Origin: Deltaproteobacteria bacterium GWA2_38_16
GTDB taxonomy: Bacteria; Bdellovibrionota; JACOXK01; 2-02-FULL-40-11
Assembly: GCA_001797335.1 (NCBI GenBank)
Contig: MGPE01000006.1
Coordinates: 187,342-251,341 of the forward strand
Direction of reading: 5' to 3'
DNA length: 64,000 bases
Part shown: in pieces, positions 6,667 through 24,250 of the stretch
How positions within the stretch are numbered: the stretch's first letter is position 1
How the letters are laid out: the number at the start of each line of letters is the position of its first letter
Made by a program: the position numbers and the translations under genes
Notes under the pieces: generated by a model
What the model was told of the DNA's origin: nothing
Database searches by the model: none
Seen by the model: only the letters and a program-made list of their open reading frames with translations

Positions 6667-7725
6667 TTACCTTGTTTTAAAAGAGACTGTCAAGCGCCGC
6701 ATTTCTAAGGTAATTCGCTCCTCATCCCCGTGGCTATTATTTTCAAAAGTATGACTAAATGCCTCCTCCGGCGCCATAGAAGAAAATTTGTAATTTTGAT
6801 CATAATAATGCTCAAGAAGTAGGCAAGTAGCCCCTTTATAGTCTTCTTGTTGAAAAAGAGTATGGATCTTTTTAAAAAGTTCCCCTCCCAAGCGCTTTTC
6901 AATAGAAAAAAGAGCCTTTTCAAGTTCTGGAACTAAATTTTTATCTCCCTCTCCCAAATATTCTTTTAAAATCCTCTCCGTTCTTTTTTCTAAGGAGCTT
7001 CGAATGAGAATCTTGGACCCTTTTTCCATGTGCTCCATCCACAGTTGGGGCAAGACCACAGGACCAATGCGTTTACTTTCTCCTTCTATAAAAATTTGAG
7101 GGCTTTCTTTATATTTTTTAATTTCTTGATATAAAAGAGCTTCAAAATTTTTTTGAGTTTGTTTAGGAATAATTCCAACTTGTCCGAACACAGATCCCCG
7201 GTGATGGGCCAAAGCTTCTAAATCAATTACCGGAAGTCCTTTTTCTTTCATCTTATTTAAAAGATGGGTTTTCCCACTACCCGTAAATCCATAAAGCGTT
7301 ATTAATTTAAAAGGATAAGGACTATTTAAGACATTTAAAACTTCTTGCCGATAATTTTTATACCCTCCCTCCACCACACATACCTTTAGTCCTGTTAAAT
7401 CTAAAACAGTGGCTACCGTCTGGCTACGAAGCCCCCCTCGCGCACAATAAAGAATAGGCATTTTCTCAAAAGCAGCTGTTTTTATTCTTAAAAATAAAGT
7501 AGGAAGCTTAGGAGAAATAATGTCTAACCCCCGTTCTCTGGCCACCTCTGCCCCTTTTTGTTTATACAGTGTCCCGATTTCTACTCTTTCCTCATTGCTA
7601 AGAATAGGAACATTGATAGCACCAGGAATACTTCCCTCTTCAAATTCCAAAGAAGTACGCACATCAATAAAAATAGAATTTGTAATATTCAATGCATCAG
7701 ATATGGAAAGTCTTGTTACAGCCAT
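6667..7725 (-). CDS. mnmH: tRNA 2-selenouridine synthase
   Basis: Rhodanese domain with CARGGLRS plus P-loop FTGSGKTHLLNKM. Confidence 0.88.
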   Translation of the reverse strand: MAVTRLSISDALNITNSIFIDVRTSLEFEEGSIPGAINVPILSNEERVEIGTLYKQKGAEVARERGLDIISPKLPTLFLRIKTAAFEKMPILYCARGGLRSQTVATVLDLTGLKVCVVEGGYKNYRQEVLNVLNSPYPFKLITLYGFTGSGKTHLLNKMKEKGLPVIDLEALAHHRGSVFGQVGIIPKQTQKNFEALLYQEIKKYKESPQIFIEGESKRIGPVVLPQLWMEHMEKGSKILIRSSLEKRTERILKEYLGEGDKNLVPELEKALFSIEKRLGGELFKKIHTLFQQEDYKGATCLLLEHYYDQNYKFSSMAPEEAFSHTFENNSHGDEERITLEMRRLTVSFKTR

Positions 7726-20446: not shown

Positions 20447-21571
20447 ATGTATATGAGGACAGATAATTTGAGAGCAATGCTTGCAGGGTTAATTTTACTT
20501 TTAACTGTTATCAGTATGGTAAAGCTTGGAACTCACAACTCTTTTCTTTTAGCTCAAGAAGATGAATTTAATACCAACATTTCCGCTTACCTCGACCAAA
20601 CACGCAGCGGTTCTGCTCGTTTAGATACTTTAGACAAAATTTTGGAAGGCCTTTCTAAAGATGTAAATAAATGGCTCTTATTAAGACCTGCCATGGTAAC
20701 CATTTTAAACAATAAAGACGATGACCTTTATGTTCAGTATCAAGGTCTTTTAAAACTTCAAAAACTGCCAACGGTGGGGCCTAGTCTTATTATTAATTTA
20801 TTATATGATAATACAGATGCTTTCACAGCTTCCATAGATCGCCTGAATGTCATTATAGAAGCTTTGGCCAATAGCCAAGAAAAAACAGCGTTACCCGATA
20901 TGTATAAACTTGTAGATGACATCAATACCAAAACTCAAAATATTGATAACGGCAATGTTATATACAGCTGGAATACGGTTTTGGATAAAATTGGCCGATA
21001 TCTGGGCTCTATCAACGATCTCTCCACCATTCAAGAACTCTTAAAACGATACAATGATCTCCCCAGACATCAAACCAATATTCGAATCGTCATGGCCACC
21101 TTTTTAGATTATCAACTTCGAAATATAGAAGGCAGAAAAGATTTTACCTTAAGCCCAGAAGATATCACTCTCATCACTTCTATGATTGGAAGTGAAACCT
21201 TCTTAGATAAAACCCAAGACAAATTCTTTGTCTTAGGGACTTTGTTCATGGCACTAAACGGTGATCCAAAATTATTTGTCTTTATTATAAACTATCTTTC
21301 TTCTTATAGAGAACAAATCAGTCCCAAACGACAAGCATTTTTAACACAGATCTTAGAAAAAGCAGAAGAAGTAAAATCTCTCTACGAAGCTATCCGTATT
21401 AAACAATCTTCTGATGATGAAGGCAATGGAACCAGACTTCTTCTTTTCTTTCTCAGTATGGGGGTTAGTGAATTTACCGAACACCCAGAAGAATCTAAAA
21501 AAGAACCCTCTCCTGAAAGACTTCTCTACAATTGGTTCCGTGAGTGGTTATTTTTTACGAAGAACTCCTAA
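20447..21571 (+). CDS. Hypothetical exported/anchored protein
   Basis: AGGAGG before ATG; N-terminal hydrophobic segment. Confidence 0.65.
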   Translation: MYMRTDNLRAMLAGLILLLTVISMVKLGTHNSFLLAQEDEFNTNISAYLDQTRSGSARLDTLDKILEGLSKDVNKWLLLRPAMVTILNNKDDDLYVQYQGLLKLQKLPTVGPSLIINLLYDNTDAFTASIDRLNVIIEALANSQEKTALPDMYKLVDDINTKTQNIDNGNVIYSWNTVLDKIGRYLGSINDLSTIQELLKRYNDLPRHQTNIRIVMATFLDYQLRNIEGRKDFTLSPEDITLITSMIGSETFLDKTQDKFFVLGTLFMALNGDPKLFVFIINYLSSYREQISPKRQAFLTQILEKAEEVKSLYEAIRIKQSSDDEGNGTRLLLFFLSMGVSEFTEHPEESKKEPSPERLLYNWFREWLFFTKNS

Positions 21572-22855
21572 GCGCAGTAAATGGCGAGCAGCAACTCTGC
21601 CTACCTCTCCTTCAGGATCTGCCTGATATACATATTTATAATATTCCACCGCTGTATGGACATCTCCAGATTGTTCATAACTTTCCCCCAGAATGAGTCT
21701 AAGTTGAGGAACTCCAGGTATAATTTGATCGGCTTTTAAAAGATCTGTCTTTGCTCCAGCATAGTCTTTGGTTTGATATTTTAAGTAGCCCAGAAAAAAA
21801 GAAGGTTTAAAAAAATCAGGATACGCTTGTATGGCTTTTCGAAGATGTGTTTTTGACGTTTCAAACTCTTTTCTCATCATATACACATAACCTATATCTG
21901 CATGAAAGAGGGCTTCATTGGGTTTTCCTTTGAGTGCTTTTTGAAAATGAGTAATGGCATCGTTCCACCGACCTTCATTGGCCACCTTTATCCCTTCATC
22001 ATGCTCCTTATAAAAAGGTTCTTCTCTTTTTAATTTTTCTGAAAGCTTTTTAAATTGTTTGGTTGTTTGGATATTATCGGGACGCTTGGCCACCAAAGCA
22101 TATTCAGTACTAATTAAAGCTTTTGCATTGGCCACCCGCTCTTGAGAGGGAGGATGGGAAGCAAACATAGCATCAATAAAACTCGCTTCTCGGGTCTGTA
22201 ATTTTTGAAGCAGTTCAAACGTTTCAAGAGCTCCTTTAGGATCATAATGAGCTCGGGTCATGTAACTCATCCCAAGTTCATCAGACTGAATTTCTTGATC
22301 CCGACCATATTTGGCAAGCCCTGCCTGAAGTCCCACAGAACCCAGAGCCAGCATCGCTTGTCTATTTTCAACATTCTTAGTTTCTAAAGCAATAGCGCCT
22401 AAATTAAAAAGACCTCCCCAAATCATCTGCCTAGACATGGCCCGAACGGCGTGGCGCGCTGTCACATGGCCAATTTCATGTCCCAAAACCGCCGCCAGTT
22501 GTGACTCATGATTCATTTGGGTTAAAAGCCCCCGCGTAATACAAATTTTTCCACCTGGAAGTGCAAAGGCATTTACCTGGGAAGTATTCACAATTTTAAA
22601 TTCATAATTTAAATTGGGTCTATGCCCCAGGTGAGCTAATTTTTGCCCTACGTCATTAATATACTTTTGTGCTCCTTGATCTGGGTAAATACCATCAAAG
22701 GATTGAATGGTGGGACCATAGTATTGTTTTCCCATACTGATTTCTTGCTCTTCTGAGATAAAAGCCAGTTCGGCCTCCCCCGTCACGGGATTTGTCGCAC
22801 ACTGAGCCATACAGAGACATGAAAGTAGCAATCCAATAATATAAAATTTATTCAT
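21548..22855 (-). CDS. M48-family metalloprotease lipoprotein with TPR repeats (BepA-like)
   Basis: Lipobox LLLSC; HEIGHVTARH; C-terminal TPR-like repeats. Confidence 0.9.
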   Translation of the reverse strand: MNKFYIIGLLLSCLCMAQCATNPVTGEAELAFISEEQEISMGKQYYGPTIQSFDGIYPDQGAQKYINDVGQKLAHLGHRPNLNYEFKIVNTSQVNAFALPGGKICITRGLLTQMNHESQLAAVLGHEIGHVTARHAVRAMSRQMIWGGLFNLGAIALETKNVENRQAMLALGSVGLQAGLAKYGRDQEIQSDELGMSYMTRAHYDPKGALETFELLQKLQTREASFIDAMFASHPPSQERVANAKALISTEYALVAKRPDNIQTTKQFKKLSEKLKREEPFYKEHDEGIKVANEGRWNDAITHFQKALKGKPNEALFHADIGYVYMMRKEFETSKTHLRKAIQAYPDFFKPSFFLGYLKYQTKDYAGAKTDLLKADQIIPGVPQLRLILGESYEQSGDVHTAVEYYKYVYQADPEGEVGRVAARHLLRLGVLRKK

Positions 22856-22888
22856 AAAAAAAAGCCCCTCTCAAGAGAGGGGCTTTTT
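22856..22888 (-). terminator. Intrinsic (potentially bidirectional) terminator
   Basis: AAAAAAAAGCCCCTCTCAAGAGAGGGGCTTTTT; lies between the mini-ORF stop and the M48 start codon. Confidence 0.85.
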
Positions 22889-22906
22889 AGTAACTATCGT
22901 AAAAAC

Positions 22907-22966
22907 CTATTTCTTTTTCTTTTTATGATGTTTTTTGGCTTTTTTCTTTTTATGTTTTTTCTTCAT
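22907..22966 (-). CDS. 19-aa Lys/His mini-ORF MKKKHKKKKAKKHHKKKKK (leader peptide or basic micropeptide)
   Basis: ATG AAG AAA AAA CAT AAA AAG AAA AAA GCC AAA AAA CAT CAT AAA AAG AAA AAG AAA TAG on minus strand; AGGAGG at 22974-22979 with 7-nt spacing; terminator 18 nt after the stop. Confidence 0.6.
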   Translation of the reverse strand: MKKKHKKKKAKKHHKKKKK

Positions 22967-23138
22967 TGTCTTTCCTCCTGTTGTAAGTGCTACGTTAAAA
23001 TCAATTAAATACATTTAAAGTGTAGCATGGAATTTTTCAAAAAAAAAGAAAAAAAATAAAATTTTGATATTTTTTTTGAAAATTTTTTAAAAAAATCCCT
23101 TTTTATTTCCATTTTTTGTGGGTAGGATCCTTTTTGTT

Positions 23139-23702
23139 ATGGAAAAAAGTTCTTCACCAAAATTTAAACCCAATAAAAAAGGCCTTGTCATTATTTATAC
23201 CGGAAATGGAAAAGGGAAAACAACGGCTGCGTTGGGCATGGCCGTTCGCGCGGTTGGTTACCAGTGGAAAGTGCTCATTTTACAATTCATTAAAGGGAGT
23301 TGGACTTATGGGGAAGAAAAAGGAGTAAAGCTTCTTTCTCCGTCGGTAGAAATGAAAAAACTTGGAAAAGGATTTTATAAAATCTTAGATGACAAACTTC
23401 CTGAGGCAGAACACCGAAAAGCCGTAGAAGAAGCCTTAAAGCTCTCCCAAGAAGCCATCGCCTCTCAAAAATATAATCTCATTATCCTAGATGAAATTAA
23501 TGTGGCTGTCAGTTGTGGGCTTTTAAAGGTAGAAGACGTGGTTCAATTAATTCAAAAAAAACCTGCTGAGCTTCACTTGGTGTTAACGGGACGCGATGCC
23601 AAACCCCAAATCATAAAACTTTCCGACCTTTGTACAGAAATGAAAGAAGTTAAACATCCTTTCCAACAAGGCTTTCTAGCGCAAAAAGGAATAGACTACT
23701 AA
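23139..23702 (+). CDS. cobO: Corrinoid adenosyltransferase (CobA/BtuR type)
   Basis: YTGNGKGKTTAALGMAVRAVG, LQFIKGSWTYGEE, LIILDEINVAV, LTGRDA. Confidence 0.92.
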   Translation: MEKSSSPKFKPNKKGLVIIYTGNGKGKTTAALGMAVRAVGYQWKVLILQFIKGSWTYGEEKGVKLLSPSVEMKKLGKGFYKILDDKLPEAEHRKAVEEALKLSQEAIASQKYNLIILDEINVAVSCGLLKVEDVVQLIQKKPAELHLVLTGRDAKPQIIKLSDLCTEMKEVKHPFQQGFLAQKGIDY

Positions 23703-24250
23703 TACGCCCCTTCTGGCGCTTGAGGCATAGCTTGCTGAGGAGGCTGAATACTTTGAGGAGCCCTAGAGAATTGATTAAGTGTTTCTACCATCCGATCATG
23801 GTTATTTCTAATTTCTGTCGTTAATTTTTCAATCATATTTCGAAGATCATTCATATCTCGCCTTAAAGAATTCATCTCTTGCTCTTGTTTTTGGGATGCC
23901 GCTGGGCTAACGGCGGGAGCAGAAGGTGTGGATGTTATCCCACTAATACTTCTTCCCTGTCCACGACAGCTATTTAAAACTTGTTCTCTTTTTTTGGCAT
24001 TAAGATAGTCCCAATTTTTCTCTTTAGACATACATTGATGAAAACCAGAAAAACTTTCTGGTTCCATAAATTCTAGATACCCAAGAAGTCTTGCGGTTTG
24101 AACAGCTTTTGTAAAATTATCTTTATTGGCCGCTTCCCGAACAAAAATACGTTGCATTTCTTCTTGATAATTAAGCAATGATTCTGCAGAGATAGCAGCA
24201 AACGAAGCACCTAAACCAACAATAATGATGATCACATAGAATTTTTTCAT
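23699..24250 (-). CDS. Exported coiled-coil protein of unknown function
   Basis: N-terminal signal; QEQEMNSLRRDMNDLRNMIEKLTTEI coiled coil; Pro/Gln-rich C-terminus. Confidence 0.65.
   Translation of the reverse strand: MKKFYVIIIIVGLGASFAAISAESLLNYQEEMQRIFVREAANKDNFTKAVQTARLLGYLEFMEPESFSGFHQCMSKEKNWDYLNAKKREQVLNSCRGQGRSISGITSTPSAPAVSPAASQKQEQEMNSLRRDMNDLRNMIEKLTTEIRNNHDRMVETLNQFSRAPQSIQPPQQAMPQAPEGAY

Follow-up and report, generated by a model that had tools for sequence, protein, structure and literature searches.

A candidate stand-alone gene for a nearly pure-lysine micropeptide, conserved in an uncultured bacterial family

Introduction

In a 64,000-nt stretch of contig MGPE01000006.1 from Deltaproteobacteria bacterium GWA2_38_16 (the window, below), a minus-strand mini-ORF of 19 codons, with its ATG at 22966 and its stop ending at 22907, encodes 14 K, 3 H and 1 A after the initiator, and the intrinsic terminator behind it ends at the start codon of a gene for an M48 peptidase-TPR lipoprotein. 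Is this a leader that controls the protease gene, or a gene in its own right that has come to lie beside it? Peptides so short fall under the usual gene-calling cut-offs, and genes of this type are masked as low complexity, so that a case conserved across a whole family is easily missed.

Results

On re-reading, the geometry described by the sequence-only reading (Shine-Dalgarno (SD) site, spacer, ATG, MKKKHKKKKAKKHHKKKKK, stop, hairpin, M48 ATG at 22855) was exact to the base (Table 1). Among all 57-mers of both strands of the window the mini-ORF ranks first in A content, without a tie, and it is the sole case in the window of at least 14 K/R/H within 18 open codons; it is not a chance feature.

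Table 1. Features of the mini-gene locus, in window positions
Feature	Position	Strand	Basis
M48 peptidase-TPR lipoprotein gene, outside the mini-gene unit	21548..22855	-	Pfam PF01435 and TPR; behind PqqC-like gene in relatives
Intrinsic terminator of mini-gene, ending at M48 start codon	22856..22888	-	Fold against shuffles; hairpin with A and T runs on its flanks
Micropeptide ORF MKKKHKKKKAKKHHKKKKK, stop codon included	22907..22966	-	Orthologues in G001-G005; single-base changes against genus g2 synonymous only
Shine-Dalgarno AGGAGG	22974..22979	-	7-nt spacer to ATG; GGAGG-type site retained in all relatives
5'UTR block AACGTAGC	22989..22996	-	AACGYAGC before SD in 6/6 family genomes
Putative extended -10 TGCTACACT, 3' of T-rich tract	23019..23027	-	TG(C/T)TA plus TTTTTTCTTT tract in 6/6 family genomes
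cobO/btuR, divergent neighbour	23118..23702	+	PF02572; adjoins mini-gene in genus g2 too
Conserved ORF, positional anchor of locus	23699..24250	-	Without Pfam match; orthologue in 5/5 relatives

Orthologues were sought in the other family members (G001-G005, with G001, G004 and G005 forming genus g2), the window's own genome being the single species of genus g1 compared. As a protein query MKKKHKKKKAKKHHKKKKK was nearly blind owing to its low complexity (even its self-match scored no better than E 0.55), and DNA patterns were used instead. The pattern for MKKKHKKKK gave exact matches in G001, G004 and G005 (JACPSU010000076, JACPST010000131 and JAHFEZ010000017 are the genus g2 accessions, all metagenome-assembled genomes labelled Deltaproteobacteria), whose mini-genes encode MKKKHKKKKAKKTKKKKK and are near-identical in sequence to that of the window genome, the G004 copy being cut by the contig end. 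A pattern combining the SD with MKKKHKKK, which is blind to the type found in G002 and G003, found the mini-gene, among the named genomes, in these three contigs alone, its eight other matches being to longer proteins or unrelated short frames. The diverged versions in G003 (MAKKKKKTTKKKKSKKKAKKKR, 22 residues, L137:6689-6757, plus strand) and G002 (MAKKKKMKRSKKKAKKKKAKKKSKKRR, 27 residues, L139:8363-8446, minus strand), each with GGAGG 5' and a strong terminator 3', were located via the neighbour orthologous to the window ORF 23699-24250, by reading the intergenic stretch beside it. The mini-gene is thus carried by 6/6 family genomes examined. Matches of the mismatch pattern outside the family were other ORFs, mostly without an SD, and a second A-rich match in the window genome (L003) was an A-rich stretch at which no comparable mini-gene was seen. 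No mini-gene was found in the viral contigs searched, and a close-relative search of genome contigs with the M48 protein returned nothing.

The sequence-only reading would have been undone by relatives holding only an A-rich tract; the reading frame itself is conserved. Between the window and genus g2, all 5 single-base differences in the ORF are synonymous (four codons and the stop codon), and the sole other difference is an in-frame replacement of CATCAT by ACA, so that HH becomes T. With the five substitutions, a small sample, taken as independent, the chance of 5/5 synonymous changes was 5e-5 to 2e-3 under neutral models (kappa 1-8) and 7e-3 when only transitions were allowed, a null that mimics selection for a purine tract. 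The frame preserved in G002 and G003 points in that direction too. With its frame conserved and its single-base changes all synonymous, the minus-strand mini-ORF at 22966-22907 is a genuine, family-conserved gene.

Upstream, the TGCTACACT region may act as the promoter, to go by its conservation. The 12-nt 5'UTR block of genus g2 (G001, G004, G005) is identical to that of the window, with an SD of like kind, and the longer block AACGTAGCACTT occurs as a single exact copy per genome wherever it is present; as a regulon motif AACGTAGCACTT was rejected, its one-mismatch matches being no commoner than those of the reversed control. The 5'UTR showed no compensatory changes or pairs, and an Rfam search gave no match.

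The terminator lies where the sequence-only reading had put it, its stem having been drawn there as 9 bp with a 2-nt loop; the predicted fold has a G+C-rich core of 8 bp closed by a CTTG loop, together with five A-T pairs, at -20.2 kcal/mol against an average of -9.3 for shuffled sequences (z -4.6). In G001, G005, G003 and G002 a strong hairpin of unrelated sequence stands at the equivalent place. Every complete mini-gene locus has its own intrinsic terminator 3' of the ORF, and the downstream gene varies between genomes.

Gene order in the window is LOG-like (+), an ORF at 20447-21571 (+, without Pfam match), M48 (-), mini-gene (-), cobO (+) and the neighbour ORF (-). In G005 it is LOG-like (+), ORF (+), PqqC-like (-), HPPD-HGD-FAH-flavin reductase (+), mini-gene (-), cobO (+) and neighbour ORF (-), and G001 has the same order across its contig. 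The orthologue of 23699-24250 adjoins the mini-gene locus in G002, G003, G004 and G005. An obligatory co-occurrence with cobO was rejected: G002 and G003 gave no cobO match, though both carry the mini-gene. In the relatives, what lies opposite the mini-gene terminator is a convergent tyrosine-catabolism operon or some unrelated gene, and only in the window genome, among the family genomes whose downstream side can be read, does M48 stand behind it. The region upstream of the M48 orthologues, which the sequence-only reading had proposed to align, holds the PqqC-like gene, not the mini-gene: M48 overlaps the end of PqqC-like in G004 and lies immediately behind it in G003 and G002. G001 and G005 (90% and 61% complete) yielded no M48-TPR orthologue; at 7550-7650 of the G005 locus L140, no M48-TPR gene follows PqqC-like, unlike in G004 of the same genus.

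All 5 family relatives retain PqqC-like and HPPD genes, and a search of the window genome (G000, rated 100% complete) found neither. By gene order on the collinear map with G005, the block of ~5 kb to which these two searched genes belong falls at the terminator/M48 junction (22855/22856). The simplest history is that this junction is a deletion scar, M48 adjoining the mini-gene because the PqqC-like/tyrosine-catabolism block was lost in this lineage, which would have brought the M48 start to the terminator. The locus would then be an example of a deletion that mimics an attenuator.

Discussion

A conserved promoter-like sequence, an SD, an ORF, its own terminator and changing neighbours together argue for a stand-alone gene, and we consider it likely, with some reserve, that the locus is an autonomous monocistronic micropeptide gene whose product is a polyanion-binding polycation. 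Transcription would start from a dedicated promoter, which is probably an extended -10 preceded by a T-rich tract, and would yield an RNA with a ~45-nt 5'UTR containing the conserved block, a strong ribosome-binding site, the 19-codon ORF and the intrinsic terminator. The product would be a disordered and, we infer, abundant polycation that most likely binds nucleic acid (DNA, RNA or ribosome) or polyphosphate, much as a detached H1-like tail might, and expression of M48 would now probably depend on read-through of the terminator or on a promoter that escaped recognition. As its alternative the sequence-only reading had offered a free-standing basic micropeptide with a terminator to itself; this is supported, a terminator being present at every readable downstream side.

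That reading had preferred a leader attenuating M48, and a lineage-specific ribosome-mediated attenuator or translational coupler now seems the least probable explanation, very unlikely given that the unit predates the junction and is carried by five relatives with no M48 behind it wherever the downstream side can be read. What suggests it in the window is the terminator abutting the M48 ATG with no better-than-chance promoter in between (a single consensus match, 22874-22845, does not exceed chance and would place the transcription start within the M48 gene), together with possible pairing between CAUAAAAAG in the mini-ORF and CUUUUUAUG at the M48 start. Through this pairing, translation of the mini-ORF might by accident affect M48, a possibility to which comparison lends no support; an M48 control role peculiar to the window lineage, of which one species of genus g1 was compared, keeps a small residual chance. 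Sensing of Lys/His charging does not fit the His codons, which vary between relatives (genus g2 has T in place of HH, and the G002 and G003 versions lack His); the Lys codons are conserved across the family, and Lys content is accounted for equally well by the chemistry of the peptide itself. In minimum-energy folds the terminator is retained, pairing elsewhere is limited to weak A-U, and no antiterminator forms; nor had the sequence-only reading found a strong one by eye. Like trp/his-type leader peptides, the mini-gene has a short ORF dominated by one amino acid and an intrinsic terminator behind it, with a structural gene next in line in the window genome only; unlike them, it has no conserved downstream gene, antiterminator, biosynthetic link or conserved His codons. 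A small regulatory RNA of ~155 nt with a secondary mini-ORF (a dual-function RNA) is scarcely more probable: codon-level constraint on the ORF, a strong SD and an ORF length that changes freely weigh against it, as do the Rfam result and the 5'UTR free of compensatory pairs, even with a conserved 5'UTR block, an sRNA-like size and a terminator at the end. Somewhat less improbable, though still unlikely, is that the product is a ribosomal micro-protein specific to this lineage, of the bS22, bTHX and bL37 kind, and not a nucleoid or polyphosphate binder. Like these it is tiny, highly basic and encoded by a stand-alone gene, its strong SD and dedicated terminator would suit an abundant ribosome component, and its KKKHKK motif is, we presume, reminiscent of AURKAIP1/COX24-type peptides. 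Unlike them, it matched nothing in the families and structures searched (the 27-residue orthologue against PDB chains, the 22- and 27-residue orthologues against Pfam and NCBIfam, a test limited by low complexity), and its sequence varies freely save for lysine, where ribosomal proteins retain specific contacts.

For the preferred stand-alone polycation, polyanion binding is the most likely activity on grounds of composition. It is favoured because H1-like tails bind DNA or are linked to polyphosphate granules: the AlgP tail binds DNA and has an effect on polyphosphate granules (PMC9239181), and Hc2 binds DNA, i.e. the chlamydial chromosome (PMC2848022). The family orthologues (18-27 residues, 73-78% K+R, zero D/E) are lysine-dominated, acid-free and of low complexity, as H1-like sequences are, and share with the AlgP C-terminal domain and Hc2 the Ala/Thr/Ser spacers and little or no acidic charge. 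Unlike those proteins, which exceed 150 residues, the micropeptide has no second domain, clear repeat unit, proline or Pfam match, and its binding is a prediction. Whether it stands for a new family of stand-alone peptides, ~20 residues long and made almost wholly of lysine, with a conserved promoter and 5'UTR dedicated to them, which serve an uncultured bacterial family as minimal polycations for the nucleoid, the ribosome or polyphosphate, we regard as evenly balanced. If it does, the gene would come near to being the smallest in nature for a polycationic protein, and could be used to ask how little sequence polyanion binding requires.

Beyond the family, homology from sequence alone is weak owing to low complexity. 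G006, of the same class, carries at a different genomic place a 48-residue lysine-rich gene with its own terminator and a KHKKKKA core as in the window peptide, which is likely orthologous to the mini-gene and agrees with the tail-like polycation reading. Neither the relatives of 22, 27 and 48 residues (Pfam, NCBIfam) nor a 79-residue lysine-rich protein of the phylum matched a curated H1-like profile. Across 192 relatives, a pattern of SD plus MAKKKK listed 36 places against 0 for its reversed control, and those that were read were mostly H1-like lysine-rich proteins, found across the phylum. A stand-alone lysine-rich mini-ORF of ~27 codons with an SD and a terminator (MAKKKKGTKKKATKKKATKKKATKKRK, minus strand of L149 in G138) was seen in another family of the same phylum, and L152 (G120) encodes a 79-residue bacterial histone-fold protein with a lysine-rich N-terminal tail, which matches PDB chains 9qt0, 8cmp and 8fvx.
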